Assembly: GCF_003003845.1 (NCBI RefSeq)
Contig: NZ_PVWO01000007.1
Span: forward strand, 1-37,001
Reading direction: 5' to 3'
Length of the DNA: 37,001 bases
Source: Chamaesiphon polymorphus CCALA 037
Lineage (GTDB): Bacteria > Cyanobacteriota > Cyanobacteriia > Cyanobacteriales > Chamaesiphonaceae
A program made the translations under genes and the position numbers. Below the pieces are notes generated by a model, which worked only from the letters and a program-made list of their open reading frames with translations, did not search any database and was not told the DNA's origin. Positions 63-30,312 of this stretch are shown here, one piece after another. Within the stretch, counting starts at the first letter, position 1, and each line of letters starts with the position of its first letter.

Positions 63-917
63 GTGCCTTCGATCGACGGCAATCGTCAATTGACAGACAG
101 TTTACGAATTAGTAAAGTTGAGATCTGTATCGATGCCTCTAATTACATGACAATCGCTACTTTTTCTAGAGAATTATTCGCTATTTCCGAACTGAGATTC
201 GTTCGCGAAGCATGGGCTTTGCCCAATCGTCCGAGCGCACTATTCGCTGATGAATCGAACCTTTCGGCGAATACTGATGCCCACAATCTCAAAGGTTCTG
301 CCAGAGCATTAGCTACTGCCAGAAAGATTTTTCGCGTAGCTAAATCTAGATATGGATGGAGCAATAGTAAAATTGAAGACTTGCTCTGTAAATTTCACCA
401 GAATGCGAGCTTCGATGGTCTAGATTCGATCGCCAGAACGCTGATATTTACTGAAGCTAGCTACAATCTTGCATGGTTAGCTGAAAAATCTGAAGACTTT
501 TCTTTTTGGCTCGACCTAAATTCCAGTCAGCGTGAAGTACTTTTCTCTTATGCCAGCCAATTGCGTGATGCTCTACTTAAATTTAGCCAGCTAAATTTAC
601 AAACTTGCATTGACTTATTTAAACGTTCTTTCCTTTTTAAGGTTAACTTTGCTAGGTTTTTTCTAGATTGTATAGATAATCATCAGAAAGTAATAGATAA
701 TGCCGATCGCATGGGGACAATTTTTGAAAAGTCTAATATTCAACAAACTAGAGTGTTGAACTTTTCAAACATGACTCAAGCCGAGAGAGATCTGGCGATC
801 GAACATTACAAAAATATCAGAAAAGCAAATCTCGATCGGCTTACTCCAGAAGAACTAGATAAGTCTAACCAACAATTCGATCGTGCCTTTCTGCTGCTCG
901 ACGAGTCTAGAAATTAA
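63..917 (+). CDS. Hypothetical protein upstream of a PIN nuclease
   Basis: I do not recognise this family. The 284-residue protein is mostly helical and polar, with no membrane segment or signal peptide. The C-terminal part (about 230-284) is rich in charged residues. The start is uncertain: the longest frame begins with GTG at 63, and the first ATG is at 147, which would give 256 residues; neither has a clear ribosome site. The gene ends 8 bases before the PIN-domain gene, so the two are probably one operon. This suggests, as inference, a toxin-antitoxin-like or RNA-processing pair in which this protein binds or controls the nuclease. It is much longer than a usual VapB antitoxin. Residues 47-55 come from a 24-nt inserted repeat at 202-225. 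Confidence 0.6.
   Translation: MPSIDGNRQLTDSLRISKVEICIDASNYMTIATFSRELFAISELRFVREAWALPNRPSALFADESNLSANTDAHNLKGSARALATARKIFRVAKSRYGWSNSKIEDLLCKFHQNASFDGLDSIARTLIFTEASYNLAWLAEKSEDFSFWLDLNSSQREVLFSYASQLRDALLKFSQLNLQTCIDLFKRSFLFKVNFARFFLDCIDNHQKVIDNADRMGTIFEKSNIQQTRVLNFSNMTQAERDLAIEHYKNIRKANLDRLTPEELDKSNQQFDRAFLLLDESRN
202..225 (+). repeat. 24-nt small dispersed repeat, in frame in a gene
   Basis: The element starts TTCGCGAAGC and ends TTTGCCCA. It is exactly 24 nt and sits between TTCG and ATCG, so removing it restores TTCGATCG and keeps the reading frame (a single Asp would replace VREAWALPN). It has the same start pattern (TTNGCGNAGC) and insertion context as the elements at 5999, 9211, 20443 and 21796. 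Confidence 0.6.
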
Positions 918-925
918 GAGCATCA

Positions 926-1417
926 ATGATTGTTTTTCTAGATACTAACGTGCTGGGCTTACTTGCTAAACCAACTAAATCTTTTGAGGAGTCATCAACT
1001 GAATCTTATCAAGTTCAACAGTGGTTCTATGGCTTGCAATCGCGTGGCGTTCGCGTCGTAACTTCGACACTTTGCGACTATGAATTTCGGAGAGGCTTAT
1101 TGGAACCGTTAGGTAAAGCTAAAGAGCTTGCGCCAGGAGTCATCGAGCTAGATATTTTGGCCGAAACAGGAATGTTGGAATTCATTCCTGTTTCTAGAAA
1201 AGATGCAATTTTAGCCGCTCAAATGTGGGTCGATGCACAAGCCGAGGGGCGGCCTACTAGCGACAAGAACAAGATCGATATTGACGTAATTATCTCCGCT
1301 CAATGTCTGATATTACAACAAGAAAATCTAGGGCAAACAGTTATTATGGCTACCAAGAATACCAAGCATATTTCGAGATATTGTGAAGCTGCTAACTGGC
1401 AAGAGATCGAGTTCTAG
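926..1417 (+). CDS. PIN-domain ribonuclease (VapC-like)
   Basis: The 163-residue protein has the PIN layout. It starts MIVFLDTNVLG with the first acidic residue at Asp6. Glu53 follows in CDYEFRRG, Asp118 and Asp120 lie in KIDIDVIISA, and a late T-x-N signature (TKNTKH, 143-148) closes the domain. PIN proteins are Mg2+/Mn2+-dependent single-strand RNases, often the toxin of VapBC pairs that cleave tRNA or rRNA. It follows the unknown upstream protein by 8 bases and is probably co-translated with it. A classical VapC is about 130 residues, so this one is slightly long. The substrate cannot be inferred. Whether this is a true toxin depends on the upstream protein, which does not look like a known antitoxin. 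Confidence 0.8.
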   Translation: MIVFLDTNVLGLLAKPTKSFEESSTESYQVQQWFYGLQSRGVRVVTSTLCDYEFRRGLLEPLGKAKELAPGVIELDILAETGMLEFIPVSRKDAILAAQMWVDAQAEGRPTSDKNKIDIDVIISAQCLILQQENLGQTVIMATKNTKHISRYCEAANWQEIEF

Positions 1418-1444
1418 CAATAGCGATCCATCAATCTAAGAGAT

Positions 1445-1834
1445 TCATGAATTTTGACGATCGACTCGTTCTTGTTCGCGAATAATGTTGTTGCAGATAT
1501 CGACACATTCGTTACAGATGTAGATGGGGACTTTTCTTAAGATCGGCCCTGCAATTAGAAACTTGATGCTTTCATGACTTTTTTGACAGAAAGAACAGTA
1601 CATCTCTAGTTTTGCTGGCTCGGAAGTGTTAGCATTCATCGGTTGAGACTCCTGAATTGAAGTAGATGGCAGCGGAAATTGTAGTGGGGACAATTTCGAT
1701 CTGAGTTGATGGCGAGATTTGTGCAACCGTCCTTTCACAGCCGCGATCGAAATATTTAATCGATCGGCGACTTCTTGAAGGCTGAGTCGATCGCGATAAA
1801 ATAGTAAAGTTGCCAGACGATTCTTTTCAGACAA
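1445..1834 (-). pseudogene. ECF sigma factor, C-terminal half: region 4 plus ClpX-type zinc finger
   Basis: This is the downstream part of the sigma gene that starts at 2238. The open frame continues upstream of the nominal TTG start (1834) to about 1915 and reads [20 protein letters not shown], the usual link between sigma regions 2 and 4. Residues 17-48 form the region-4 helix-turn-helix ([20 protein letters not shown]). After a linker, Cys80-x2-Cys83 and Cys107-x2-Cys110 form a C4 zinc finger of the ClpX N-terminal type (MYCSFC...YICNEC). Such a finger on an ECF factor may sense redox or metal state or bind a partner; this is inference. No start codon with a ribosome site is seen, so it is unlikely to be made alone. 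Confidence 0.7.
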
Positions 1835-1896
1835 GGCATTGACGGCTTCGAGTAATGCCGTATGGAGTTCTTCCTGCTCTGCTACTAGCTGCGGAT

Positions 1897-2238
1897 CTAG
1901 CGAACTGCTATCGATCGATTTTCGTCCACCAAATTCTCCACCATTGTCTCAAGGGAAAAATAAATCACCTTCCGCCGCCGAAGCTGGTTGCGACAAAGAT
2001 TGAGAACGATGCCATACAGCCAACTTTTAAAGCGCGTCGGATCGTTAAGTTTAGCCAATGACAGATAAGCTTGCAGCATGGCTTCTTGGACGAGTTCTTG
2101 TGCTAGATCCTCATTCCCAATTGCTTGTCTGGCGATCCGTTGCGCCATTGGCTGATAGCGCAATACCAGCCGACTGAATGCAGCTTTATCTCCCTGTCTC
2201 GCCAGCAAAACTAATTCCAACTCGTTACGATCGCACAC
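1897..2238 (-). pseudogene. ECF sigma factor, N-terminal half: region 2
   Basis: This gives the first 113 residues of an ECF (group 4) sigma factor. Residues 44-89 are region 2 (DLAQELVQEAMLQAYLSL then RFKSWLYGIVLNLCRNQLRR), which binds the -10 element and core RNA polymerase. The GTG start at 2236-2238 follows a GAGG motif. The frame hits TAG at 1897-1899 just after a run of CGAT units, while region 4 and the zinc finger lie in another frame immediately downstream. Adding 4 nt (one CGAT unit) near 1911-1921 joins both frames as [15 protein letters not shown]. The gene is therefore either a recent pseudogene or an on/off allele. No anti-sigma gene is adjacent. Confidence 0.7.
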
Positions 2239-2635
2239 GGTTCCCTCACCGAATAACTCTTCTACTTAAATAGTGGCAAGTTAAACCAAAAAAGTTACTT
2301 ATAGAATCCATCGCAAGTAATCGAGCCAGATCTCCAAGCCACTAATGGGGTAGTACATATCGTCGATCGGATCTTACTACCACCGAATACTAAATTATAG
2401 TTCTGAAAACTAATTTTTTAATCGATCGATTGAAATTGATGACTATAGTTAGATAGCGTAGCTAAACTTATGACTTTTATCCCGATCGCGAGGTGAATAA
2501 AGTTTATAAATCTATCGACATTTAGGAAGAGCTGTTTTGTCGAGCGATCGATTAAATTAGAAGCTGAATCGATCGAATAGTTGTGAGATTTAAACCTCGA
2601 TCGGCTATTTCAATCTTACTAAATATCTAAAACAC
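2239..2635. other. Divergent intergenic region, no gene seen
   Basis: This stretch of about 400 bases separates the minus-strand sigma gene from the plus-strand small secreted protein, so it should hold two divergent promoters. It is AT-rich and contains several CGATCGAT runs (2421, 2544, 2570). No convincing -35/-10 pair, hairpin or small gene could be assigned. Confidence 0.5.
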
Positions 2636-2935
2636 ATGAAAAAAACAATGTTATTCGCACTAGTTTGTGCGGGATTGGCAGTAAATCTTCCGGCTGTCGC
2701 GACGAGCGTGCCCCAGTCAGTCGAGCAAAATGTCAGCGGCTCGACCGATCTCATCGCTCAGTATCGTCGGAACGATCGCCGATTTAATGTTTACTATCGT
2801 TATCGTGGCAATCGACCTTGGATTTTAGAAAATTCCTATGTTAATCGGGGCAATGCTGAAGCGGCAGCACGAAGATTAGAACGACGTGGCTTCCGGACTT
2901 ACATACAACTCAGTCGCCGAGTCAATCGTGTTTAG
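2636..2935 (+). CDS. Small secreted basic protein (99 aa), paralogue of 34810-35109
   Basis: Residues 1-23 form a signal peptide (MKKTMLFALVCAGLAVNLPAVA). The mature part is short and rich in Arg and Tyr. From about residue 47 it reads RRFNVYYRYRGNRPW and later AEAAARRLERRGFRTYI, which is also the core of the protein at 34810-35109. Both are 99 residues. The pattern of A-x-x-A-A-x-x-L-x-x-x-G-x-x-x-Y recalls one half of a SPOR-like fold, but the domain is too short to be sure. It probably acts in the periplasm or is exported; its role is unknown. The nearest downstream feature is a strong hairpin at 3033-3065. Confidence 0.75.
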   Translation: MKKTMLFALVCAGLAVNLPAVATSVPQSVEQNVSGSTDLIAQYRRNDRRFNVYYRYRGNRPWILENSYVNRGNAEAAARRLERRGFRTYIQLSRRVNRV

Positions 2936-3032
2936 GGTCGATCGAACGGTAGTTATAAATTAGGGTCAATTATAGTTCTGTGGCTCTAACAATTTACTCT
3001 AATCCGATCGATCCAGCTCGAATGTAATAAGC

Positions 3033-3065
3033 ATAGATCGAGTCGCTCCAAGCGACTCGATCTAT
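3033..3065. terminator. Hairpin between convergent genes
   Basis: A perfect 15-bp stem with a 3-nt loop (ATAGATCGAGTCGCT, CCA, then the exact complement). It lies between the end of the plus-strand secreted protein gene and the end of the minus-strand VOC gene. It could stop transcription from both sides, although neither flank has a long T run. Confidence 0.55.
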
Positions 3066-3184
3066 TCGCATATAAAAACTCATTGGAGATCTTTTTAGAT
3101 AGCCAAACGTTCGATCGTGAGCCGAACGAATCAAAGCAGGCAAGAGTCACTTACCTGTGGATATCGACGTAATTTCACGGATGC

Positions 3185-3541
3185 TTACTCTTCTCGATGG
3201 CTCACAATATTTATCGTCATGCCGTTTGGTTCGCGGACGAAAAAGCGTCGAACGCCCCACGGTTCATCCGTGAGTGGATAGACAACCGTATAACCATGCC
3301 TTATGGCTGCCTCATAAACACGATCGACATCGGCCACTTCAACTGACAGGTTCGGGTGCATCCCTGATGGGTCGTTTGTCAGCACGCTAATTTGAGTCGT
3401 TGGGTCTGCTGGTGCAGCGTATGTTTGAATCCAGCCTAAATCCATCGCCTTAGTCAATCCCAAAACTTGGGTATAAAACAGTTCGCTCTGCTCGGTATTT
3501 GTAGTTTGGATGTTGGAGACAATTCGACGAATCGAGTTCAT
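3185..3541 (-). CDS. VOC (glyoxalase/bleomycin-resistance) family protein
   Basis: The 118-residue protein has the paired beta-alpha-beta-beta-beta layout of the vicinal-oxygen-chelate fold: an N-terminal module with FYTQVLGL (22-29), then VADVDRVYEAAIRHG and a closing REPNGMTINIV. VOC proteins bind a metal and act on or sequester small electrophiles, antibiotics or aromatic compounds. It is the last gene of a three-gene operon behind an ArsR regulator and an SRPBCC protein, 18 bases after the latter. That arrangement is common for small detoxification modules. The substrate is not evident. Confidence 0.85.
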   Translation of the reverse strand: MNSIRRIVSNIQTTNTEQSELFYTQVLGLTKAMDLGWIQTYAAPADPTTQISVLTNDPSGMHPNLSVEVADVDRVYEAAIRHGYTVVYPLTDEPWGVRRFFVREPNGMTINIVSHREE

Positions 3542-3559
3542 GGCTGGAGCCAGTTGTAA

Positions 3560-4039
3560 TTAGTTGCGTGATTCTAAAAGTTGACCCAGAACTTCAACAG
3601 ACTGCCGCCAGCCGCTTTCCATGCCGCTGGCAACCATGCCATCGCGGTCTGCTTGGCTCATGGCAGTGCTATGGGTATGAATCTCAGTCGTATGTTCGTC
3701 AATTGCTATAAACTCGGCTTTTTCGAGCATCACATGTCCGCGTTCCGGCATCCCCAAGAATTCAAACGTCTGCACGATCCGTCGATTGTGGGCGACTTCG
3801 TGAAAACAGCCAGTAAACTGATACTCGTTACCATCTTCTGCTTGCTCGGCAATATGCCAACTACCGCCGTCTTTACAATCAAAATGATACACTTTCATCG
3901 GATTACCGCGACACCACCATTTAGCAAACAGATCCGCTTGAGTATAAGCATTGAAGACCTTTGCTAGCGGAGCGTTAATGGTGACTGTACCCAGGATGTT
4001 TTGGGAATTTTCTGGGACTGTTACTTTTAGATCTGCCAT
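3560..4039 (-). CDS. SRPBCC / AHSA1-like protein
   Basis: The 159 residues match the START-like SRPBCC fold of the Aha1 C-terminal (AHSA1) type. The N-terminal strand pair gives GTVTINAPLAKVFNAYT, followed by the WW dipeptide of the first helix (LFAKWWCRG) and a late MESGWRQSVEVLGQLLE helix. These proteins form a deep hydrophobic pocket for lipids or polyketide-like ligands. Genes of this type very often follow ArsR regulators. Here it lies 20 bases after the ArsR gene and shares its promoter. The ligand is unknown. Confidence 0.85.
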   Translation of the reverse strand: MADLKVTVPENSQNILGTVTINAPLAKVFNAYTQADLFAKWWCRGNPMKVYHFDCKDGGSWHIAEQAEDGNEYQFTGCFHEVAHNRRIVQTFEFLGMPERGHVMLEKAEFIAIDEHTTEIHTHSTAMSQADRDGMVASGMESGWRQSVEVLGQLLESRN

Positions 4040-4059
4040 ACAGATATATTCCTCCCAAT

Positions 4060-4383
4060 TTACTTTTCTGCTAATAATTTTTCTAAAGTATCAAAGCGAT
4101 CGCCCCATACTTTTTCGTACTCGCTCAGATGTGCTGCGGCTACTTCGATCGCTTCTGGTGTGACGCGAACGAGTTTCTCCTTGCCATTTCGACGCTTAGT
4201 AACCAGCCCTGCCTTCTCAAGCACGCTGACATGCTTCGCAATCGCAGCTAAAGAGGTGGCATAAGGTTGGGCTAACTCGCTAATGGTCTGTTCTTCTCTC
4301 GATACGCGCTTGAGGATATCTCTCCGCGTCGCATCGGCGAGAGCACCAAAAATTAGATCGAGCGCAAGATTTGATTCAACCAT
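4060..4383 (-). CDS. ArsR-family HTH repressor
   Basis: A 107-residue winged-helix regulator with ALADATRRDILKRV, ISELAQPYATSLAAIAKHVSVLEKAGL (recognition region) and the wing KRRNGKEKLVRVTP. No cysteine pair for metal sensing is present, so it belongs to the non-metal ArsR branch that partners SRPBCC proteins. I chose ATG at 4383 over a longer frame from 4410, because the longer start would lie inside the promoter. It is first in the operon ArsR-SRPBCC-VOC. A 5-bp inverted repeat inside its own promoter suggests autoregulation. Confidence 0.88.
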   Translation of the reverse strand: MVESNLALDLIFGALADATRRDILKRVSREEQTISELAQPYATSLAAIAKHVSVLEKAGLVTKRRNGKEKLVRVTPEAIEVAAAHLSEYEKVWGDRFDTLEKLLAEK

Positions 4384-4391
4384 ATGGTTGA

Positions 4392-4420
4392 ATGATAGCC
4401 CGAGCGACACATCGTGTCAA
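4392..4420 (-). promoter_or_regulatory. Promoter of the ArsR operon with internal operator
   Basis: On the minus strand TTGACA (4415-4420), a 17-bp spacer and TATCAT (4392-4397) form a near-consensus sigma-70 promoter. The inverted repeat GACAC-ATC-GTGTC (4406-4418) overlaps the -35 box and spacer, which is right for autorepression by ArsR. The expected transcription start is only a few bases before the ATG at 4383, so the mRNA may be leaderless. Confidence 0.6.
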
Positions 4421-4447
4421 GTGCTACTGTTGGAGTTTGAGCTAAAC

Positions 4448-5491
4448 CTACTTGGGAGTTTGCATTGCCTGTACGACTGTAGTTGCAACTTGAGCTATTA
4501 TTTGTTCTCGTTTGGCGATCGGAGCTTTTGAACCCGCAACAAACACCGCGATCGCCACCTGTTTTCCATGGGAAGTGATGATGCCAACATCATTGGTCGC
4601 AGTGCCTACTCCCAAAACCTCTGGGCCTGTACCCGTTTTGTGAGCGATCGACCAGCCTTGAGGTAGTCCAGCTTTGAGTCGCTGTTGCCCTGTTGGTGAA
4701 TCCGTCATGATTTTGAGTAACAGAGCCGTTGAGTTTTCGGACAATAGCTGACGCGATTGCAGTTTTGCTAGCAGATCGATGGTTTCCTTCGGGGTGGCTG
4801 TATCGCGAGGATCGCTGAGATAGCGATCTAGAGCAGCTCGTTTCACGGCAACTGGGATTCGCTCTACAGCAGCGGCATATTTTTGCTCATCTGCCAGTTC
4901 GGGGCGAAAGTTAGTCAGCCCAACACAGTCTGGCTGCAACTGCCGCTCTAGTCGATCGACTCGAATGCCGCGAATGTTCATCTGTCGCAGCGTTGCGGTG
5001 ACTCGTTCGGGGCCACCTACTAAGCGAATTAAGACATCGACAGCAGTGTTATCGCTCACCCCTACCGCTCGTTCGAGCAATTCTCGCACGGTGTACTGTT
5101 TACTATCGCCTGTTATTTCTTGCCGAATCGGACTCCATAGTGGCGCAAAGTCTTGTCGAGAGACCGTCACTGGCCGATCGAGGGACAGTTTACCTGCATC
5201 AACTTGCTTGAGGACAACAATCCCCACTGGTAGCTTGTAGACACTCTGCATCGGCAACCGTCGCTCGCCATTGTAAAACCAGCTTTTCCCAGTATTGAGA
5301 TCCATTACGCCAACTCCAACCCGACCTTGAGCGGCGGAAAAATCCAGATGATTGAGACGATCGAACGATGAAACAATGGCAGGAGAAGATTTAGATCGAT
5401 CGGCAGATGAAAGGTGAGGATGGGAAAGAGTAATTATTGCAACGATCGCACTAAGCAGGAAACACCAACGAATTAACTTCAACGAAAACAT
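4448..5491 (-). CDS. Class A beta-lactamase family serine hydrolase
   Basis: The 347-residue protein has an N-terminal signal anchor or signal peptide (about 7-25) and the class A motifs in order: SVYK (83-86, nucleophile Ser83 and Lys86), SDN (146-148) and KTG (285-287). The omega-loop has DRLERQLQ at 179-186 where TEM-type enzymes have DRWEPELN, so the general base Glu (Glu182) is kept while the usual Asn170 is Gln. About 40 further residues then separate this from the RDTATP motif (229-234), a longer loop than in TEM. It is exported and likely hydrolyses beta-lactams or acts on cell-wall peptides. Resistance cannot be assumed from sequence. The stop lies 65 bases from the ArsR start. Confidence 0.88.
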   Translation of the reverse strand: MFSLKLIRWCFLLSAIVAIITLSHPHLSSADRSKSSPAIVSSFDRLNHLDFSAAQGRVGVGVMDLNTGKSWFYNGERRLPMQSVYKLPVGIVVLKQVDAGKLSLDRPVTVSRQDFAPLWSPIRQEITGDSKQYTVRELLERAVGVSDNTAVDVLIRLVGGPERVTATLRQMNIRGIRVDRLERQLQPDCVGLTNFRPELADEQKYAAAVERIPVAVKRAALDRYLSDPRDTATPKETIDLLAKLQSRQLLSENSTALLLKIMTDSPTGQQRLKAGLPQGWSIAHKTGTGPEVLGVGTATNDVGIITSHGKQVAIAVFVAGSKAPIAKREQIIAQVATTVVQAMQTPK

Positions 5492-5631
5492 ACTTTGTTT
5501 CCAAATTCACTACTGGTTAAACCACCTGGTTTCTATGGATTACGGACAAAGTGCAATTTATTTTTAGGCACCCATCAGTGCATCATAACCTCCTTCTAGT
5601 TTGCTACGCACAATATATTGCTCCTCACGAT

Positions 5632-5760: not shown

Positions 5761-5854
5761 AGCTACGATTTTCCCCAATTGTTTATTTGATTCAAAGCGT
5801 AGCTCCAGCTCCTCCTGTTGCTACTTACTTGGAGTGTAACTAGTTAAAATGCTT

Positions 5855-5897
5855 GACTTCTTTCAACTTCTTACGATGATTTGTCAGATTCTTATGG
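5855..5897 (-). promoter_or_regulatory. AraC-type tandem operator, copy A
   Basis: On the minus strand two direct repeats close to AAGAATCTGACAAA lie 21 bp apart, about two helical turns, the second one degenerate. The plus strand shows TTGTCAGATTCTTAT at 5881-5895. The same 43-nt arrangement recurs at 20191-20233 and 21493-21535. A -10-like TTTAAC lies 9 nt after the proximal repeat, as at copy B. Confidence 0.55.
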
Positions 5898-5899: not shown

Positions 5900-6047
5900 T
5901 TAGCGAACCTGCTTTGGAGTCATTCCAGTGAGTCGTTTAAACTGTTGGGTCAGATGGCTTGGACTGGAGAAACCCACTTCTAAGGCGATATCGGCGATTA
6001 TCTCCGATAGGCTACGCCAACGCCAAATCAGTTTTCGCCAGCATCAC
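5900..6047 (-). pseudogene. Remnant: C-terminal HTH of an AraC regulator
   Basis: The minus strand encodes MLAKTDLA and then IADIALEVGFSSPSHLTQQF with KRLTGMTPKQVR and a TAA at 5900-5902. This is the last part of an AraC/XylS HTH domain, nearly identical to the end of the gene at 21538-21966. It is interrupted by a 22-nt small repeat (5999-6020) that shifts the frame and adds a stop. Sequence further upstream (about 6048-6110) reads like another protein (VAAPLLASNRFNKYFG) and does not belong to AraC. Confidence 0.7.
5999..6020 (-). repeat. 22-nt small dispersed repeat that breaks an AraC remnant
   Basis: Minus-strand start TTGGCGTAGCCTATCGG. It splits a HIP1 site: GCG and ATCGC flank it, and taking it out restores TTGGCGATCGCCGATATC, which is the intact AraC reading (LAIADI). 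It is 22 nt instead of 24, so the frame is lost here. Confidence 0.65.
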
Positions 6048-9132: not shown

Positions 9133-9747
9133 TTAAATAGACTGACCACCAGAGACTTCAATTCTCTGGGCATTTACCCAGCGGTTATCTTCGGATAGCA
9201 AGGATGCGATTATCGTTCCGATAGGCTTCGCCAACGCCCCGCCAATATCATCGGGAAGACCGACTCGACCTAACGCGGTTTGTGAAGCGAGGAAATTATT
9301 AATCTCTGGGTTATCCCGCACTGCACCGCCCCCAAAATCTGTTTCGATCGCACCTGGAGCCACTACGTTCACTGCAATCTGTCGGTGTCCCAATTCCTTT
9401 GCCATATATCGAGTCAAGACCTCGATCGCGCCTTTCATGCTGGCATAAGCGGAGTAACCCGGTAGTGTAAAGCGAGCCAGACCGGACGAAAGATTCACAA
9501 TCCGTCCGCCGTCCTTGAGCAGTGGCAGCAGTTTTTGGGTGAGAAAGAAAACGCCCTGGAATTGGATGTTCATCAAGCGATCGAATTCTTCCTCAGTCGT
9601 CTCGGCAAACGGGGCATAAACGCCTATTCCGGCATTGTTAACGAGGAAATCAACCTGCTCGGTCTGCCATTTGTCCTGGAGCGATCGCTTGACTTGCCCT
9701 ACAAAACTATCAAAAGTTTTGGTGTCAGAAGTATCCAAAAACTTCAT
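9133..9747 (-). pseudogene. N-terminally truncated SDR with 8-residue insertion
   Basis: A short-chain dehydrogenase/reductase that begins at KFLDTSDTKTFD, about 60 residues late. The TGxxxGIG cofactor loop and first Rossmann strands are missing, and TAG immediately precedes the ATG. What remains is NNAG (37-40), the catalytic YxxxK (Tyr101, Lys105), APGAIETD and a C-terminal WVNAQRIEVSGG. Residues 171-178 (ALAKPIGT) are encoded by a 24-nt repeat at 9211-9234; without them the sequence is the normal DDIGGAIASLL. NAD(P) binding is doubtful, so I treat it as decaying. It lies within the six-gene operon between the Kelch and azoreductase genes. Confidence 0.75.
9211..9234 (-). repeat. 24-nt small dispersed repeat, in frame in SDR
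   Basis: Minus-strand start TTGGCGAAGCCTATCGG, exactly 24 nt, flanked by GCG and ATCGC. Removing it gives GCGATCGC (HIP1) and restores the SDR reading GAIAS. It is almost the same sequence as the element at 5999-6020, which lacks two bases. Confidence 0.7.
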
Positions 9748-20287: not shown

Positions 20288-20496
20288 TTATTCCTGCTGA
20301 AGAAAGTCAAGTAATACGGGATTGACTCGATCGGCATGAGTCCAGTTGATGGCGTGCGGCTCGCCAGGAATGACCACAAGTTGACTATTTTCGATCGGTT
20401 TCGGGAGTCTTCCTGCGGTGGATTCAAGCGGCAAAATGCGATTTCCCTACAGGAACGCTCCGCGAACGGCATCGCCATGAACGACTAGGGTTGATA
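20288..20496 (-). pseudogene. Remnant: C-terminal third of an alpha/beta hydrolase
   Basis: The minus strand encodes DISTLVVHGDA, then after a 24-nt insertion RILPLESTAGRLPKPIENSQ, LVVIPGEPHAINW and THADRVNPVLLDFLQQE before TAA at 20288-20290. HGD-x-D is the acid strand and PHAINW carries the catalytic His of the family. The insertion (20443-20466) introduces TAG. The upstream two-thirds are gone and the remnant begins right at the pirin stop, so the two genes were fused by deletion. Confidence 0.75.
20443..20466 (-). repeat. 24-nt small dispersed repeat with stop codon, in hydrolase remnant
   Basis: Minus-strand start TTCGCGGAGCGTTCCTGTAG, exactly 24 nt, between GCCG and ATCGC. Removing it gives HGDADRILPL, the expected hydrolase sequence. 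In this orientation it brings a TAG. Confidence 0.65.
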
Positions 20497-20498: not shown

Positions 20499-21365
20499 TC
20501 AATTATCGGGAAGCGGAATGAATTCAGTTTCACCAGGAACCGCCGGGAAGCGGCGGTCTTGCCAATCTTGTTTTGCCTGCTCGATCCGCTCTGAGCGGCT
20601 CGACACAAAGTTCCAGTACTTTGTGCGATCGCCCAATGGTGCCCCGCCAATAATCATTGCTTTTGCCTCAGCCTCTGCACGGATATCTACTGACTCATCC
20701 GGTGCTAAAACGGCTAGACGATATGGCTCTAAAGGCTTTCCATTTAAGAATAGGCCGGATGTAACGCTATAAACTGCCCTTTCTAAACCTTCTATTGGGG
20801 CTAGCTGAAATTGACTACCCTCCGTGAAAACGAGTGCTAGGTAAAGAGTATCAGAGTAGGTTATAACTGGCGATCGGTGAGACTGGTAGCTACCAGCGAT
20901 TAAGGTCGCGCTGGTACCTGTTTGAATCCACCTCGGTAAATCGGTCGCCGGATAATGTGAAAAGCTGGGTTCGACTTCTTCAGCGGTTTCGGGGAGGGCA
21001 ATCCAGGTCTGGATGCCGTGAAGAGTAGATTCTTTCTCTCTAGAGCTATCGGTCGATCGCTCAGAATGAACGATACCTTTGCCCGCTGTCATCCAGTTCA
21101 CCTCGCCCGGAAAAATCTCTTGTACCGTACCTAGACTATCTCGATGCAGAAGGCTTCCTTCAAACAAATAGGTAACAGTCGCCAAATTGATGTGTGGATG
21201 GGGTCTAACATCGACACCTTTTCCAGCCGGGAAAATAGCTGGGCCTAAGTGGTCGAAGAAGATGAAAGGCCCAACCATTTTTAGGGTTTCACTCGGTAAG
21301 CTGCGCTGGATGCTAAACCCACCTAAGTCGTGCTTTTCGGGCACGATTAATTGCTGAATACTCAT
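20499..21365 (-). CDS. Pirin family protein (second copy)
   Basis: A bicupin of about 288 residues with the pirin metal site in the first cupin: RPHPHINLATV and WMTAGKGIVHSERS. It belongs to a different subgroup from the pirin at 15536-16429 (FSIQRSLPSETLKMVGPFIFFDHLGP start). ATG at 21365 is used; an ATG at 21380 is possible. It follows an AraC-type operator at 21493-21535 and the shortened AraC gene, with all three in the same direction. A TATACT box near 21470 is compatible with activation from that operator. Confidence 0.92.
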   Translation of the reverse strand: MSIQQLIVPEKHDLGGFSIQRSLPSETLKMVGPFIFFDHLGPAIFPAGKGVDVRPHPHINLATVTYLFEGSLLHRDSLGTVQEIFPGEVNWMTAGKGIVHSERSTDSSREKESTLHGIQTWIALPETAEEVEPSFSHYPATDLPRWIQTGTSATLIAGSYQSHRSPVITYSDTLYLALVFTEGSQFQLAPIEGLERAVYSVTSGLFLNGKPLEPYRLAVLAPDESVDIRAEAEAKAMIIGGAPLGDRTKYWNFVSSRSERIEQAKQDWQDRRFPAVPGETEFIPLPDN

Positions 21366-21537: not shown

Positions 21538-21966
21538 TTAGCGAATCTGCTTTGGTGTGATGCCAGTAAGTCGCTTAAACTGTTGGGTCAGATGGCTTTG
21601 ACTGGAAAAGCCCACTTGTAAGGCGATATCGGCGATTGTCAAATCCGTTTTTGACAGCATCGATTTGGCTCGTTCTACTCGCTGTTGAATCACATACTGA
21701 TGCGGCGAAATTCCGGTTGCTTGTTTGAACGTACTAGCAAAGTAAGTCGGGCTAAGATTGATAACTTTTGCAAGTTCAGTCAGGGATAATTCTCGTTCGC
21801 GTAGCGTCGGCTCTGCTTGGTGGAACGCACGCTGAGGGAGCCTCAGCGCGATTCCATCCGCTGCCGAATCGAGATGGGCATAAATATAGTCGAGTACTTG
21901 TTGCAATTGGGTATGCGTTAAGCTTCTGTTCTTAGATTCAATGTTTGGCTTTGCAATTGTTAGCAT
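21538..21966 (-). CDS. Shortened AraC regulator (DNA-binding domain) with inserted repeat
   Basis: Only the AraC DNA-binding region is present (142 residues, usual length about 290). The ligand domain is missing and the chain starts MLTIAKPNIESKN. Both HTH motifs are intact: LSLTELAKVINLSPTYFAS and IADIALQVGFSSQSHLTQQF, ending KRLTGITPKQIR. Between HLD and REL about 24 residues (SAADGIALRLP to TLRERE) are encoded by a 72-nt insertion at 21796-21867 that keeps the frame. The protein could still bind DNA, without ligand control. The adjacent operator C and pirin gene are the likely targets. Confidence 0.8.
   Translation of the reverse strand: MLTIAKPNIESKNRSLTHTQLQQVLDYIYAHLDSAADGIALRLPQRAFHQAEPTLRERELSLTELAKVINLSPTYFASTFKQATGISPHQYVIQQRVERAKSMLSKTDLTIADIALQVGFSSQSHLTQQFKRLTGITPKQIR
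21796..21867 (-). repeat. 72-nt nested small repeat, in frame in AraC
   Basis: The insert is 3 x 24 nt and lies between CTCG and ATCG on the plus strand, so removal restores CTCGATCGAG and the normal AraC reading HLDREL. Its outer ends (TTCGCGTAGCGTCGGCTCTG and CCGA) match the 24-nt element at 30289-30312, with 48 nt of a different palindromic sequence inside, including the hairpin CGCTGAGG-GAG-CCTCAGCG. It seems to be one element inserted in another. Confidence 0.65.
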
Positions 21967-24971: not shown

Positions 24972-25075
24972 AAGAAGCCTCCATATGAGGAAAATATTGT
25001 GAAAAATGGGAAGAGAGTCTAGGCTTTGTTCTAAGTTGACTACCGATCGATACATCTCTACTTGCATAAACTCAA

Positions 25076-25250
25076 TATAGGCGATCGCCTTCAAGCTGTC
25101 TTCTACAGCAAGTTAAATTTTTTACAGTACAAATCGATAGAGCAGCCATTCGATCGCAGAGTAGAAGGCTAGTTATAACTTAAGTTAGAATCCCAAGTCG
25201 ATCGAAAGTCAACAGAAATTCAAGTATTGGCTACCCCTGTAGAAGTGGGT
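25076..25250 (-). repeat. Long upstream repeat, copy 3, with DUF5996 tail
   Basis: Contains TTTTACAGTACAAATCGATAG and TAACTTAAGTTAGAATC as in copies 1 and 2 but no 40-bp palindrome. After this, bases 25205-25250 repeat the end of the DUF5996 gene and its downstream bases (compare 23992-24044), including codons for PLLQG and TAG. It lies about 105 bases upstream of the DUF5996 start. The remaining part of the gap (25251-25388) has a short reading of unclear origin and no gene. Confidence 0.65.
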
Positions 25251-25388
25251 CGCTACAGGTAATCCATGCCCTCCAAGATCTTGATGCGGCGTTTACGAAG
25301 AGATTCTGGCAGATTTCGACGATCGCTCAAACATCCTTTGGGACTGGGTAGACAAGCGGCGATGGTTGGCTTATTGGTGGGTGTTATT

Positions 25389-26021
25389 TTAATGAGAAGA
25401 CAGCCGATCGAGGTCTAGTCGATCGCTTTGTGTATATTCCTTGGCTGTCATATCATCCAGCGTTACCACTGAGCCATCTACAGCACTAAATCTTCCCGAT
25501 GCGGGGAGTAGTTTCAGCCAACTATCCAGCCATTTATGCCATTCTCGATCTTGGAAGCGATCGTCTGTCTCGGCGCAGACAAACCAGAATATTAGTTCTA
25601 CTGCTTCTGCATCCCAAGCGGGTGTGGCACTTACTCTGATTTCGCGTAAGGCGCGTAGAGCCTCGCCTTCATCAGTAGATTTCTCGTGCTTGTCCTGCAT
25701 TCGCTTTTGCAGCTTGTGAGCGAGCCGATTAAAATCATCAGGAAAGGCAACTCGACTGCGTTTGCGCGATAATGCCTCTGCTAGATCGCGAGTATCTGCA
25801 TCACTTTGGCATCCGGGTATTCTCTCCCATGCTGCTACCACAGCCTTTTCTACGGTCATTACTCGATCGAGATCTGCTACCAGAAAGAGATCGGCAACTC
25901 CCGCAATGTAGGCGTAGTTAGGTCGTTTTAGTTTTTTAATCTCTATCAAGTCTCCTTGAGACCATTTGCTCAAGGCTGAGTCTATTGCTAGAATCCCCGC
26001 ATCAGGTTCATTGCTCGTCAC
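25389..26021 (-). CDS. Hypothetical protein, third gene of TIGR04255 cassette
   Basis: The 210-residue protein has no recognisable motif. It is soluble and mixed alpha/beta by appearance, with an N-terminal part that reads DLIEIKKLKRPNYAYIAGVADLFLVADLDRV and a Trp-rich segment FWFVCAETDDRFQDREWHKWLDSWL. The GTG start shares one base with the stop of the preceding HTH gene (TAGTG), so the translation of the two is almost certainly coupled. I assign no function. Its constant linkage should be checked in other genomes. Confidence 0.75.
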   Translation of the reverse strand: MTSNEPDAGILAIDSALSKWSQGDLIEIKKLKRPNYAYIAGVADLFLVADLDRVMTVEKAVVAAWERIPGCQSDADTRDLAEALSRKRSRVAFPDDFNRLAHKLQKRMQDKHEKSTDEGEALRALREIRVSATPAWDAEAVELIFWFVCAETDDRFQDREWHKWLDSWLKLLPASGRFSAVDGSVVTLDDMTAKEYTQSDRLDLDRLSSH

Positions 26022-27004
26022 TATTTATTTCGACTCCTCACGCTTTTTGCCGCTCTTGACTTACCTACCTCCCGATGGATGGAATCTTGGATAGCATCTA
26101 CCAGATCCGCTGGATTGGGTGGTACTCGCGACATCTCTGCTGCGGTCGATAATTTACCTAATTTGGGTTTGGCGGGCGCATTACCAGCACCGAGCAGATA
26201 TTTGACTCGCTCGAATTCACCTGCTGCAAGTAGTTCTAGATAGGATTTCCCGTCATCAGCAATGCCCATTAATAGACTGCGATTGCTACTGGCACTACCG
26301 CGAGAAATGTACTTCACCGAGTCCAAAGTTCGATTTAACTTTTCCTCATTAGCTGAAGACAGCGGCTCCCCACTAGCCCAGAAATGAACGCTCCGGCGCG
26401 AAACACCGAACAGAGTCGCAAGTTGCTCCCAAGTTAAACCACTCAACTTTCTAAGTTCGTTAATAGCTTGCTGTGTAGATTTTACGGGAAGTGCGGCTGT
26501 TTCGACTGCATGGACACCTCGATCGAATTCGGTCGAGTTGACATGAAATGCTGAGGCTTGGAATTTTTTCCAAATTTTCCCCATCAACGAAGTGACAGAA
26601 AGCTCTAATCCTTGATGAATTGAAGCGCGATTTTGCCAGAGGAAGACATTTTTAGCTGTTTGCTGCCCGATTGCACAAACATCTTCCGTCGTATTTACAA
26701 ACGGATAGCATCTGCGTTGATACACTTGCTCGTGCTTGGAATAATCATGTATGGCAATGATGGATAACAAGACACTTTTTGGAATGGTTACTTCAATCTC
26801 TACACCGCTAGTTGTCATATTTAGAGCCGCTAAAAAATGACGTTTGTGTATTTCCGCCACCATTGCTGTGCTGCGATCGCTCGTAAAGATTGCCGAATCG
26901 ATCCAATGACTCGTGCTTGAATTTAATCTACCCTCTACGGTAGACATTACTTGGGCTTGGTTCGTCAAGGTGCGATTAGTTGTTGTTTCTAGAAGAGTAT
27001 TCAT
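26021..27004 (-). CDS. Large HTH-domain protein of TIGR04255 cassette
   Basis: A 327-residue protein with an XRE-like helix-turn-helix at about 177-228 (INELRKLSGLTWEQLATLFG then VSRRSVHFWASGEPLSSANE). The N-terminal 170 residues have no known domain but include TSGVEIEVTIPKSVLLSIIA. A C-terminal extension (about 235-327) ends in a basic tail. It overlaps the TIGR04255 gene by 4 bases (ATGA) and the next gene by 1. It probably regulates the cassette or acts as DNA-bound sensor. Its unusual length argues for more than a plain repressor. Confidence 0.8.
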   Translation of the reverse strand: MNTLLETTTNRTLTNQAQVMSTVEGRLNSSTSHWIDSAIFTSDRSTAMVAEIHKRHFLAALNMTTSGVEIEVTIPKSVLLSIIAIHDYSKHEQVYQRRCYPFVNTTEDVCAIGQQTAKNVFLWQNRASIHQGLELSVTSLMGKIWKKFQASAFHVNSTEFDRGVHAVETAALPVKSTQQAINELRKLSGLTWEQLATLFGVSRRSVHFWASGEPLSSANEEKLNRTLDSVKYISRGSASSNRSLLMGIADDGKSYLELLAAGEFERVKYLLGAGNAPAKPKLGKLSTAAEMSRVPPNPADLVDAIQDSIHREVGKSRAAKSVRSRNK

Positions 27005-27828
27005 AATTCACCACCATAGCGTCGTAAAAATTCATCAGTTACCGCCCAGCGAAAGAATGTATAAATTCTCTCGGTAAAGCGCAGAGCCTGAGCCATGAGA
27101 GCTTCAAGGTTAAATACTTGAGGGTTTGTCGCAGATATGTCTAGATCGAGTATCCAGCTACGTTCGGAGACGGCTTCGATCGTGTAAGGATCGAAAGTGG
27201 CATTAGCAGGCATCACACCCCATCTAGCGGAGATTTGAGCTTCTGGCAATAAAAATAATGACTCGTGCAGCACTTGATGAACGTACTCCTGAAGATCGCT
27301 ACAGCTAATCCCAGCCATTTCGGGTCGAATCAACTGCGATATGTCTTCCAGATTTTGACCAACAACCCGATCGATATAGCGCAAGCCCACTCGATCGATC
27401 TGTGACAAGTGAAAGTTGCTGTGAAGTTTGACCAGCAAATCTTCTAAACGTGCCAAGAAGTCGGTGCGACTGGTGTATTTAGTCGTCTCGATCGACACTG
27501 AACTGCTCGATAGCGAGATCCGCCACGTCCGATCTGTATTCCAAAAGCACCAAGTTGTCTGAATTGTCGGCGTTACAGAGGCCCCGTCAGTATTCAATAT
27601 GAGGCTTTGCGTTTTCACAGGTTCGAGGGTCGGGTATTCTGCCCGAATTGACTCTTGAAAGGCACCAACAAACGCCTGTTGCTCGATCGACAGAATCGGC
27701 GGAAACCGTACCTGCGCGATCGCTCTCACCAAGGGCGCGTTTGTTAATGGCACCTCTGACGGTGGTGTGGCGATGAGTGGATTAGCATCAATCACTTTCG
27801 GCGTGCCTTTTGCGACTTTCGCAAACAT
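27001..27828 (-). CDS. TIGR04255 family protein
   Basis: The 275 residues match the TIGR04255 family: an early LTNAPLVRAIAQVRFPPILS, a central QTTWCFWNTDRTWRISLSSS and IDRVGLRYIDRV, and the C-terminal half with SWILDLDISAT. The family is sporadically distributed in bacteria and has no assigned function. It is the first gene of a tightly overlapping cassette. Upstream, two direct GTGTGAA repeats (27892-27898 and 27904-27910) 12 bp apart may be the binding site for the HTH protein. Mobile, compact and of unknown function, the cassette could be a defence or toxin-antitoxin-type module (inference). Confidence 0.85.
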   Translation of the reverse strand: MFAKVAKGTPKVIDANPLIATPPSEVPLTNAPLVRAIAQVRFPPILSIEQQAFVGAFQESIRAEYPTLEPVKTQSLILNTDGASVTPTIQTTWCFWNTDRTWRISLSSSSVSIETTKYTSRTDFLARLEDLLVKLHSNFHLSQIDRVGLRYIDRVVGQNLEDISQLIRPEMAGISCSDLQEYVHQVLHESLFLLPEAQISARWGVMPANATFDPYTIEAVSERSWILDLDISATNPQVFNLEALMAQALRFTERIYTFFRWAVTDEFLRRYGGEL

Positions 27829-28495
27829 GGTGTGGGACTGGAGCAGATGAGTATTTTTATCATGCCCTAATATACATATCTTATAACAGCAGTGTGAAAT
27901 AAAGTGTGAAGTTATTCAGCACAAGCCATCTCACTGAAACTGTAGCACGATCGAGAACAGCTAGTGCCGATTGAATAGTATCGACTTCTTAAGTTTCAAA
28001 TAATGACTCCCCACATCGATCGGCTACCCATTACCCTACATTCAGCATGTTCCTTTTTGAAATAAAGAGTTACACTCTAAATCCTATCTGTATAAGGACT
28101 CCAGCTTATGCAGTACTTTTGAACTGAAAATGATTGTTGACAAAGACACCCCCTTTATTGACAATATTCTTTACTTAGAGACTGTAATATCCTTAATGCT
28201 TGGTAATAATTATTTAAACGTGAATTTAACCTGCTGAATGTGGGATTAATACTAGCTTCGCCAACAGTAAGTTCAATTTTTTACAGTACAAATCGATAGA
28301 GTCGCCATGCGATCGCAAAGTAGAAGACTAGCTATAACTTAAGTTAGAATCCCAAGTCGATCGAAAGTACACTCTATAGAACCCAGTTGAGATCTTTGTA
28401 GGCGATTGTCTACCTAATGAGAGTTAGGCTGCTTGAGTTATTGGTAGAATCTTAATCAGCTTTGCTCACAATTCAGCATCAGAGACTATGCCATA
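27829..28495. other. Long intergenic region without clear gene
   Basis: Contains the direct GTGTGAA repeats (27892-27910), two TTGACA motifs on the plus strand (28137 and 28157) without a gene in range, a 35-codon frame from ATG 28130 (MIVDKDTPFIDN...) of doubtful meaning, a TTGGCGAAGC small-repeat start on the minus strand near 28264, and copy 4 of the long repeat. The rest shows nothing. Confidence 0.5.
28264..28368 (-). repeat. Long upstream repeat, copy 4 (shortest)
   Basis: Keeps TTTTACAGTACAAATCGATAG, GCGATCGCAAAGTAGAAGAC and TAACTTAAGTTAGAATCCC, then matches copy 3 up to GTCGATCGAAAGT. Unlike copies 1-3 it has no start codon closely downstream; the TIGR04255 gene is about 430 bases further in the same direction. 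Confidence 0.6.
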
Positions 28496-29167
28496 TCAAG
28501 CTTTGATGCCAGCCCAAATGAGATCGATCGCTGCTTGAATCTGTTGCTCGATCGCCTCTGCACTTAAAAGCTGCCGCGCCGGATCGAGATACTTCAGATT
28601 TTCATGAGCATTGAAGTAAAACGTACAAACACCCAAGATATTAATTGCTGTCAGAAATGGATCTAGCGATCGCACCACCCCTTCAGCCATGCCACGTTCT
28701 AAGATCGTTGTTATGCCCCAAAAACTTTTTTGCCAACCACTAGATTGCCCATATTGTCCCTGATTCTGAATTGCTTCATAAAACCACAGCATTCCTCGAT
28801 GCGGGTACATTGCACCATATGTAATACCCGATCGAATAGATGCTTCGATCGCTTCTTGTATTGATAAAGAGTCTGAAACAAGTTGCTCGGATACGATATC
28901 TAATTCGCTACCAATGCGTTGCATTACCGCTTGATAGAGTCCTTCCTTACTCTTGAAGTAGTAGTAAATCATTGCTTTAACCACACCCGTCCGCGCCGCG
29001 ATCTCATCAATTTTAGTGCCAGCTAACCCATAGCGGGCAAACTCTTCTTCTGCTGCATCCAAAATCTGTGCCTGAGTTGCCTCCGCATCGCGGGCTTGGC
29101 GGGGTTTTTTCGATTTTTGCCTTGAAGAATCTGAAGAACTCACTGAATAACCTTTTTCCTGCACCAT
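28496..29167 (-). CDS. TetR-family repressor
   Basis: The 223-residue protein has the TetR N-terminal HTH: QILDAAEEEFARYGLAGTKI, DEIAARTGVVKAMIYYYFKSKEGLYQAV. The rest is a helical ligand domain with an aromatic stretch MLWFYEAIQNQGQYG. A Ser/Lys-rich segment precedes the HTH. I chose ATG at 29167; a longer frame begins with TTG at 29215 and would run into the promoter. It is divergent to the Rieske oxygenase gene and a clear inverted repeat lies between them, so it most likely represses that gene. Confidence 0.92.
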   Translation of the reverse strand: MVQEKGYSVSSSDSSRQKSKKPRQARDAEATQAQILDAAEEEFARYGLAGTKIDEIAARTGVVKAMIYYYFKSKEGLYQAVMQRIGSELDIVSEQLVSDSLSIQEAIEASIRSGITYGAMYPHRGMLWFYEAIQNQGQYGQSSGWQKSFWGITTILERGMAEGVVRSLDPFLTAINILGVCTFYFNAHENLKYLDPARQLLSAEAIEQQIQAAIDLIWAGIKA

Positions 29168-29194
29168 AATTTTAACTGAAAGTTTGGTCAGTAG

Positions 29195-29242
29195 TTGACA
29201 AACTAGATGCGGCAAGAGATACTGACTATATATTCAGTCAGT
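29195..29242 (+). promoter_or_regulatory. Promoter and TetR operator of the Rieske gene
   Basis: TTGACA (29195-29200), 17 bp, then GATACT (29218-29223) form a plus-strand promoter. The perfect inverted repeat ACTGACT-N8-AGTCAGT (29221-29242) overlaps the -10 box and the start site, the standard place for TetR repression. A weaker inverted motif (TTGGTCA and TGACAA) lies at 29184-29201. Confidence 0.7.
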
Positions 29243-29243
29243 T

Positions 29244-30212
29244 ATGGAAATATCAGCTATGAATACCATTTTGCCCGGTGCGCCTTGGCTAATCGCCCAT
29301 CGATCGATGCTAGGAATTAATAAACCTTACAAAGTGACACTCAACGGGCAAGATTACGTTCTGTGGCAGAACGATCGCGGCGAGGTATTTGGCTTAGATA
29401 ATGTTTGTCCGCACATGCAGGCTCCGCTATCCAATGGTTGGATTTGCCAAGAGCGGGACACCATTACCTGCCCATTCCATGCCTTGGAATTTGACGGCGA
29501 AGGCAGGTTGCATCGAGAAGGTAAGCGAGATACACAGCCACTCTCGCGATCGCTCAAACTGACGGTAATTGGCGATTTTATTTGGACATACGATAATTGT
29601 GAGCCGCGAGTGCCTATTCCCGACATCGTTCAAAATATCGCTGCGGAATACGATTTTATCGGAATTGCGGGAGAAAAGACTATTCGATCGGATTTTTTGA
29701 GTACTTGGCTGATTAATTCCGATTTCAACCATCAAAATGGCACCCATCGAGAGTTATTTCAAATCGTCCAAAATCAAATGACTGAATTCGATAAAGATGG
29801 CTATTGGTATCAAGTGAAACAGGAGAGTACCAGAGCCAATAATTCACTTGGGGAAATTTTCAGTAATCCGGTGTTATTAACATTACCGAAAATTCTCAAA
29901 AGTACAGTGGAGTATTTTTTCCCTTCAGTTCTAGTACTCTACGCTGAATCAGGAATTGGGCCATTTGCTCAAGTCGTCGTGCAATATCCTCAGCAAAACG
30001 ATCGAACCAAAATTTACGAGTTAATCTTTGGTAAGTTCAAGTTTGCAGGGATGAAGCCTCTATTTCGTCAATCCATGTTAAAAGCTATCGATGTGGTTGT
30101 CGAGCAAGATTCGATGGCGATCGAAACTCGTTATCCTTCCCAACTTGCTAAAATCAAACTTCCAAATGAAGAGGTGATGGCATATGCTGAGAAGCTCTAC
30201 AAGGAATGGTAG
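29244..30212 (+). CDS. Rieske 2Fe-2S aromatic-ring-type oxygenase
   Basis: The 322-residue protein has a Rieske domain with Cys55-x-His57 and Cys76-x2-His79 (CPHMQAP and CPFHALEF). The catalytic domain has Asn158/Asp160, His163 and His168 (INSDFNHQNGTHRE), matching the mononuclear iron ligands of the phthalate/pheophorbide-type oxygenases. No transmembrane segment is clear at the C-terminus, unlike plant-type PaO proteins. Start may be ATG at 29244 or 29259; the second is further from the operator. The expected role is oxygenation of an aromatic or related compound with electrons from a separate reductase, under TetR control. Confidence 0.9.
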   Translation: MEISAMNTILPGAPWLIAHRSMLGINKPYKVTLNGQDYVLWQNDRGEVFGLDNVCPHMQAPLSNGWICQERDTITCPFHALEFDGEGRLHREGKRDTQPLSRSLKLTVIGDFIWTYDNCEPRVPIPDIVQNIAAEYDFIGIAGEKTIRSDFLSTWLINSDFNHQNGTHRELFQIVQNQMTEFDKDGYWYQVKQESTRANNSLGEIFSNPVLLTLPKILKSTVEYFFPSVLVLYAESGIGPFAQVVVQYPQQNDRTKIYELIFGKFKFAGMKPLFRQSMLKAIDVVVEQDSMAIETRYPSQLAKIKLPNEEVMAYAEKLYKEW

Positions 30213-30288
30213 TAGCGATGACCGCAACCTAAGCAATCGCTGCACCAGAACGATCGAAATGGTTAGTTATTGACAACAGCGATCTGCG

Positions 30289-30312
30289 TCCGTGTAGCGT
30301 CGGCTCTGCCGA
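30289..30312 (+). repeat. 24-nt small dispersed repeat, intergenic
   Basis: Contains GTAGCGTCGGCTCTGCCGA, exactly 24 nt between CTGCG and ATCA. Its end matches the outer parts of the 72-nt element at 21796-21867. It lies between the Rieske and response-regulator genes. Confidence 0.6.

Follow-up and report, generated by a model that had tools for sequence, protein, structure and literature searches.

The small dispersed repeats (SDRs) of cyanobacteria, as the 2008 study of Elhai et al. (Genome Res 18:1484) reportedly found, are 21–27 nt long and form hairpins supported by compensatory changes; one of them, SDR5, is said to occur only within the octamer GCGATCGC. To our knowledge, the question of how a noncoding 24-nt sequence copies itself has stood open since the SDRs were described. 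Here, we examined a window of 37,001 nt from Chamaesiphon polymorphus CCALA 037 (contig NZ_PVWO01000007.1, positions 1 to 37,001), in which an earlier reading of the letters alone, hereafter the original prediction, had proposed six related insertions at CG^ATCG-type sites. These are very probably copies of a non-autonomous, SDR5-type small mobile element, and we infer that it is joined as a single strand at CGATCG.

A passage of PMC4390886 describes SDR5 in Nostoc and sets its junction after the third nucleotide of HIP1, GCG^ATCGC. As this junction is already in print, the claim that the window holds a new family does not stand. Other passages of the same source name CGATCG as the sequence recognised by the cyanobacterial methyltransferase DmtC and ask whether site-specific HIP1 events are really CGATCG events. 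SDRs also appear in passages of two further papers: PMC3733652 cites the 2008 SDR paper for cyanobacterial repeats that resemble repetitive extragenic palindromes (REPs) and have no conserved terminal motifs, and PMC3116915 lists the SDRs with other repeats whose origin might be clarified by its approach.

Distribution of the element

The analysis used the genome of the window, G000 (6.09 Mb in 756 contigs), and a same-genus genome, G006, with a complete chromosome of 6,284,095 bp. The genome-wide search proposed with the original prediction, using the pattern TTSGCGNAGC-N14-ATCG, yielded 113 exact copies in the window's genome as compared to 0 for a reversed-pattern control. All 8 of the 8 same-genus genomes contained the element, with 20–183 exact copies each, and two same-family genomes had 12 and 7. 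At least one copy was present in 44 of 60 relatives; because the reversed control gave 10 matches in total over the same set, a count of one or two in a genome is close to the control level. A stricter pattern was present in 32 of the 50 genomes behind the named loci: counts were 52, 84, 56, 66, 55 and 16 in six Chamaesiphon records, 24 in an uncultured relative and at most 14 elsewhere. The 60-relative and 50-genome counts share some assemblies and are not independent; for instance, the element coordinates of G063 are identical to those of G002 (such as C284:3512).

Among loci of other cyanobacteria (L467–L496), a CG-TTSGCGNAGC-hairpin module was preceded by CG in 27 of 31 cases and followed by ATCG in 9 of 31, with TAC or GAAG often standing in place of ATCG. 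These modules are possibly sister families with a common 5' end.

Precise insertion at CG^ATCG

To survey empty sites, we compared the 173 elements of Chamaesiphon loci totalling 1.87 Mb with their homologous sites, both paralogous and orthologous. An ungapped empty homologous site across the junction was found for 19 of the 173 elements, and for 11 of these 19 it read exactly CGATCG at least once, as had been predicted of empty sites. In the 19 best empty sites, identity in the junction hexamer was 104/114 versus 529/657 in the flanks. In one such pair, L009 and L038, which are 93% identical over 296 bp, one locus carries the element and the other reads CG^ATCG. For 33 elements, a further locus likewise carries the insertion; in some of these cases, one place had been retrieved twice. 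At the gene read as lnt (lipoprotein N-acyltransferase), different elements occupy neighbouring sites in G006 and the window's genome. A synteny comparison with L042 returned mostly repeat matches. Overall, insertion at CG^ATCG is precise, occurs without duplication or loss of the target, and has a fixed orientation with respect to the element's own sequence. These data support the original prediction of a site-specific small mobile element with a constant junction in a palindromic target.

The target is a hexamer

For the target, loci are separated here by how they had been chosen. The loci of the window's genome and 800 kb of G006 were selected with an element pattern that fixes ATCG and the GNA loop of the first hairpin (described below), not CG, so their ATCG and GNA counts are inflated. 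The figures that we trust for the junction and loop 1 come from 344 kb of Chamaesiphon loci that were not chosen for the element, scanned blind to flanks and loop 1. Among the 36 elements of this unselected set, CG preceded 33, ATCG followed 30, and the joined flanks read CGATCG in 28 and the octamer in 2. In the pattern-chosen stretches, where the left flank was left free, CG preceded 27/29 elements in the window's genome and 82/88 in G006. Only 38% of CGAT in these genomes continue with CG, which indicates that each half of the hexamer counts.

A larger set, again scanned blind to the flanks, gave joined flanks of CGATCG for 43/53 elements in the window's genome and 83/122 in G006. The octamer made up 9/43 and 4/83 of these joined sites, respectively, against a background share among CGATCG of 162/1647 and 396/3954; the G006 share is below background (p = 0.14). 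The target is thus the six-base core CGATCG and not the HIP1 octamer, which is not required. In 900 kb of G006, there were 429 GCGATCGC and 736 TCGATCGA per Mb. Similarly, the passage on Chamaesiphon minutus in PMC4390886 describes this species as an exception in which TCGATCGA outnumbers HIP1, and the table row for strain PCC 6605 gives 448 GCGATCGC and 750 TCGATCGA, which we take as per Mb; given this agreement, G006 is probably PCC 6605. With respect to the question whether HIP1 events are CGATCG events, those of the SDR5-type element in Chamaesiphon are at CGATCG.

For one element (L056 in G006 and L375 in G000), both the joined flanks and the empty homologous site read CGATCT, and use of a near-cognate target is possible.

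The flanks also bear on a route that needs no dedicated enzyme, in which copies would pass from one CGATCG site to another by template switching or ectopic gene conversion, with CG and ATCG as microhomology. Such a route would suit a very common palindrome and the identical 2+4-nt flanks of most copies (28/36 in the unselected loci). It is nevertheless improbable: identical copies at unrelated sites had no clear excess of matches beyond the hexamer (4 and 7 pairs, a comparison of low power), and the hairpin pairing described below is conserved far above a shuffled control, whereas passive copying needs no pairing.

Two abutting mini-hairpins

In a typical copy, TT precedes two mini-hairpins that directly adjoin each other. 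Hairpin 1 spans positions 3–11 and has 3 bp and a triloop that is mostly GNA (30/36 in the unselected set; 31/31 and 63/71 in the pattern-chosen loci). Hairpin 2 has 5 bp and a 3-nt loop in 24-mers, and 4 bp and a mostly GNA loop in 22-mers. To evaluate the pairing, a discovery set of 200 copies was compiled from the 100 of 113 copies listed for the window's genome and the 100 of 183 listed for G006. In this set, the outer pair of hairpin 1 was G-C in 134 copies and C-G in 54. In hairpin 2, which no search pattern fixes, 904 of 1000 pairs were Watson–Crick as compared to 595 when the 3' arms were shuffled (maximum 631). A held-out set of 138 copies was drawn from three further genomes, G064 (55 of 55), G063 (66 of 66) and G062 (17 of 56); here, 644 of 690 pairs were Watson–Crick versus 461 shuffled. 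On viral contigs (at least 120 stretches), 2 of the 80 loci examined (L240–L319) had at least four of the five hairpin-2 pairs, which may be about chance level.

The loop of hairpin 2 follows its closing pair. In 24-mers with perfect stems closed by A-T, G-C or T-A, the loop was GNA in 48/53 copies of the discovery set and 30/35 of the held-out set. By contrast, stems closed by C-G had an NNT loop in 64/89 and 46/67, and GNA in only 6/89 and 1/67 (Fisher p ~3e-25 and ~2e-19 for the rule in the two sets, respectively). In 22-mers, in which the 4-bp hairpin 2 is closed by C-G, the loop was GNA in 24 of 27, as was loop 1 in 23 of 27, some of these 22-mers coming from loci retrieved with a pattern that fixes loop 1.

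According to passages of PMC4686876, DNA mini-hairpins with a GNA loop on at least two G-C pairs are 'extraordinarily stable'; the melting temperature given for GCGAAGC is 78 °C, and the 9-mer CGCGAAGCG was used in that work. This 9-mer is a form of hairpin 1. Folding energies from RNA and DNA tables did not separate GNA from other triloops, and the standard nearest-neighbour tables do not include the stability effect of GNA mini-hairpins.

Strong compensatory pairing could also be maintained if the hairpins were regulatory or protein-binding structures under selection and not mobile DNA. This is hardly credible given that clean empty homologous sites exist, that reading frames contain many copies, of both orientations, and are in some cases broken by them, and that an Rfam search of the window returned no match.

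Length and reading frames

With no length imposed, the spacing between TT and the following ATCG was 24 in 29/36 starts in the window's genome and 61/126 in G006, bearing out the predicted peak at 24; in G006, it was 22–25 in 74/126, and 24/126 had no ATCG within the stretch read. A scan limited to 22–25 nt (n = 140) gave 116 elements of 24 nt, 15 of 22, 6 of 25 and 3 of 23. Relatives of 39 and 42 nt with three hairpins have the same CG/ATCG junction (L015, L038, L065 and L069).

Open frames of at least 150 aa contained 74/125 of the 24-mers and 3/27 of the 22-mers, the latter rising to 11/27 after removal of the element; eight frames are thus broken by a 22-mer, one of them in G046, outside the genus. 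In a different set of loci, 72% of random positions lay in such frames. Orientation with respect to genes was even (25 same, 30 opposite). The family has 22-, 23- and 25-nt members, and its 22-mers disrupt reading frames. The length of 3n noted in the original prediction is thus not intrinsic to the element; it is a filter on copies in genes, a matter of selection. In-frame insertions add 8-residue segments to proteins and represent a minor source of protein change.

Proposed mechanism

We propose that the element would move as a folded single strand. A DmtC-type hexamer CGATCG would supply a nick or gap, and the folded strand would be joined in there. Copies inserted in frame within genes persist as 8-aa insertions, and 22-mers break genes. 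Single-stranded DNA rather than duplex cut-and-paste is suggested by the off-centre, duplication-free junction within a palindrome and by the GNA loops: a clean, off-centre insertion of fixed polarity in a palindrome is expected of joining to one strand. More tentatively, SDR5 might be the smallest known single-strand transposon, a 22–24-nt strand of two GNA mini-hairpins joined at nicked CGATCG, for which Chamaesiphon would be a natural experiment favouring hexamer over octamer.

Several observations weigh against joining of a single DNA strand at the hexamer. At the junction, 8 of the 19 elements with ungapped empty sites have none that reads exactly CGATCG, 7 further elements have gapped homologous sites only, and 52 of the 126 G006 starts CGTTSGCGNAGC have no ATCG at 22–25 nt. 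As for the target, the octamer share in G000 is modestly above background (p = 0.034) and T is enriched before CG in G006 (51/83 versus 40%); sequence context beyond the hexamer may matter a little. As for the strand, DNA nearest-neighbour energies were lower for the GNA strand in 40 of 138 copies and for the other strand in 98, and RNA tables favoured the GNA strand in 13 and the opposite strand in 123 of 138. These tables thus give the GNA strand no advantage, and the case for it depends on published melting data. Mismatches are balanced between G.T and A.C overall (14 versus 21 in the discovery set, 18 versus 8 in the held-out set, 32 versus 29 combined), which leaves wobble tolerance uninformative as to RNA. 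Finally, no enzyme was found, and replication-strand bias was not detected on the complete chromosome (permutation p = 0.45; 100 of 120 copies listed, positions of origin and terminus not known). The latter counts against the proposal because a lagging-strand single-stranded DNA transposon might show such a bias.

Strand bias had seemed apparent in one listing of copies and mixed in another, and was set aside on the formal test. The same listed copies are spread unevenly over the G006 chromosome (G006:C1), with 45 in 1.0–2.4 Mb and 25 in 3.0–6.0 Mb.

The abstract of the 2008 SDR study is said to have suggested RNA intermediates. In such a route, a folded transcript would undergo target-primed reverse transcription at nicked CGAT^CG, the resident AUCG flank pairing with the primer. 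The CG and ATCG flanks of the copies could act as priming and rejoining homology, and the even gene orientation, the excess of G.T over A.C in the held-out set and the better folding of the strand opposite the GNA strand in RNA tables all agree with it. On the other hand, the discovery set has the reverse G.T to A.C ratio, bringing the combined counts close to parity, and GNA loops are DNA-specific stable loops in the account given in passages of PMC4686876. We consider the RNA route possible, if somewhat doubtful.

With regard to an enzyme, the original prediction had called for a recombinase or source locus, and neither was found. The REP-associated tyrosine transposases (RAYTs), which are HUH enzymes of the Y1 type, were tested as candidates, SDR5 being in that case a REP-like substrate. 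There are 4 Y1/HUH genes in G000 and 5 in G006, and SDR5-type elements lie near some RAYT-like ones. Within 500 bp of 40 RAYT-model genes, 12 elements were found in 54.5 kb versus 7 in 174 kb farther away (p = 0.0003). By contrast, 50 of 60 relatives have RAYT-model matches, which do not track the number of SDR5 copies: of the 10 relatives without a match, 5 (G008, G018, G027, G048 and G056) carry copies, and G011, G016, G042, G044 and G053 have matches and no copies. Moreover, classical GTAG-GGTGGGCACTGCCCACC REPs of their own accompany the RAYTs at G000:C571, G006:3366929 and G006:6142846, and the GTAG or CGTC strings in some SDR5 copies belong to loop 1 or a stem, never to an unpaired tag at the foot of a hairpin. 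The local enrichment near RAYT genes may reflect a shared tolerance of insertions. On the lack of co-occurrence and the RAYTs' own GTAG REPs, we rejected these enzymes as the mobiliser, a role that we regard as very improbable.

At these three RAYT genes (L440, L442 and L443), inverted REPs are on both flanks in the classical REP/RAYT arrangement. In two species (L426, G003:C155; L432, G005:C31), the same SDR5-type element is found just ahead of a match to a RAYT-like gene.

The six elements of the window

The six predicted coordinates and lengths proved exact (Table 1).

Table 1. Insertions in the window and their component parts.
Feature	Coordinates	Strand	Remarks
SDR5-type 24-nt element TTCGCGAAGCATGGGCTTTGCCCA, between CG and ATCG	202..225	+	In frame, open reading frame (ORF) 63-917(+)
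Hairpin 1 of the 202 copy	204..212	+	3-bp stem, GAA loop, outer pair C.A mismatched
Hairpin 2 of the 202 copy	213..225	+	5-bp stem TGGGC/GCCCA, TTT loop
22-nt element in broken AraC-like gene fragment	5999..6020	-	Empty site GCGATCGC
24-nt element in short-chain dehydrogenase ORF 9133-9747(-)	9211..9234	-	In frame; empty site GCGATCGC
24-nt element closing alpha/beta-hydrolase-like frame	20443..20466	-	Empty site CGATCG; weak Pfam score
24-nt SDR5-type element with nested 48-nt hairpin repeat, in AraC-family regulator ORF 21538-21966(-)	21796..21867	+	
Nested 48-nt hairpin repeat, from a different family of small repeats in the genus	21816..21863	+	One of five equivalent placements
Degenerate 24-nt copy between two converging frames	30289..30312	+	Joined flanks CGATCA

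Read in one orientation, all six elements have CG directly 5' and ATC directly 3'. Five share the form TT[C/G]GCG N AGC... and, as predicted, begin with TTNGCGNAGC; the sixth, at 30289, begins with TCCGTGTAGC. Of the 8 occurrences of TTNGCGNAGC in the window, 3 (331+, 13577+ and 28264-) are no such element. Removal restores CGATCG at all but the sixth, in agreement with the original prediction, which had further described the restored site as usually GCGATCGC; this octamer is found at only 2 of the 5 (5999 and 9211).

With respect to the predicted restoration of the host proteins, the four sites differed. Without the 9211 element, adh_short_C2 scored 157.7 bits as compared to 144.5 with it, and removal at 5999 restored the frame of the AraC fragment (only the removed version was scanned). 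At 21796, removal closed an in-frame insertion of 24 aa just ahead of the AraC helix-turn-helix domain and left the scores almost unchanged (HTH_18, 91.6 to 92.0; HTH_AraC, 87.6 to 91.3). At 20443, it opened a frame that is closed with the element present; the match of the removed version, the only one scanned, is weak (20.5 bits, under the Pfam cut-off of 25.8). The gene at 202, described in the prediction as having no homologue, indeed had no Pfam match; it does have an 87%-identical homologous stretch in G006. At the same site, G006 carries a related, altered and longer sequence, which is probably a decayed copy, and some copies are therefore probably old.

The repeat nested in the 21796 element is a second small, mobile-looking repeat of ~48 nt (CTGCTTGGTGGAACGCACGCTGAGG...CCTCAGCGCGATTCCATCCG), also seen in L369, L135, L145, L146 and other loci. 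Its stem has compensating base changes (TGG/CCA, TGC/GCA, TGA/TCA), and the window's 48-nt stretch has further matches in relatives at 84–100% identity. It lies inside SDR5-type elements twice, at window position 21796 and, by reading, in L369. Elsewhere in the window, positions 20501–21300 hold a Pirin-family gene with 93% identity to a plasmid of Oscillatoria nigro-viridis PCC 7112, likely a recent transfer.

Comparison with known systems

REPs and REPINs with their RAYTs resemble the Chamaesiphon element in being short, dispersed, non-autonomous hairpins, and the recognition of hairpins in single-stranded DNA provides a plausible analogy. However, the element has no unpaired GTAG/CGTC tag and no cognate RAYT that we could find, is often intragenic and uses a fixed palindromic target. 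IS200/IS605 and their non-autonomous derivatives share with it the absence of target duplication, hairpins at both ends and an off-centre junction. Some of these features are described in passages of PMC6006769. Unlike these, the element is only 24 nt long, has no spacer, has a two-sided target, CG^ATCG, and showed no strand bias in the copies listed. No such hairpin was found in the flanks (up to 1.5 kb a side) of the two IS200-size genes of G000, L380 and L382. HIP1 and its derivatives, with DmtC, supply the target sequence; HIP1 is the site and not the element.

The closest system is SDR5 of Nostoc punctiforme and its relatives, with which the Chamaesiphon element shares the HIP1-type CG^ATCG junction, lengths in the 21–27-nt range, compensated hairpins, dispersal, and mobility, here seen in filled and empty sites. 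It differs in its host lineage, in a target that is CGATCG in any context and mostly not the octamer, in an explicit two-mini-hairpin rule, and in the presence of 22-, 23-, 25-, 39- and 42-nt relatives and, in some copies, a nested 48-nt hairpin. The octamer-only occurrence ascribed to SDR5 is not seen in Chamaesiphon (9/43, 4/83 and, in unselected loci, 2/28), and the element is for this reason classed as an SDR5 variant and not as SDR5 in the strict sense, likened to it by its described junction and anatomy and not by a published consensus. No report of SDR5-type elements from Chamaesiphon was found in the literature searched, mostly without subscription papers, nor any that connects such elements with GNA mini-hairpins.

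The structural rule, with GNA in hairpin 1 and a hairpin-2 loop set by the closing pair, is tight enough for the design of substrates. The system is also amenable to testing, the target having been narrowed to the DmtC hexamer in a genus with 20–183 exact copies per genome and one complete chromosome. Together, these data place the element within an already described kind; as compared to SDR5, what is new here is the host lineage, the sharper target and the structural rule.

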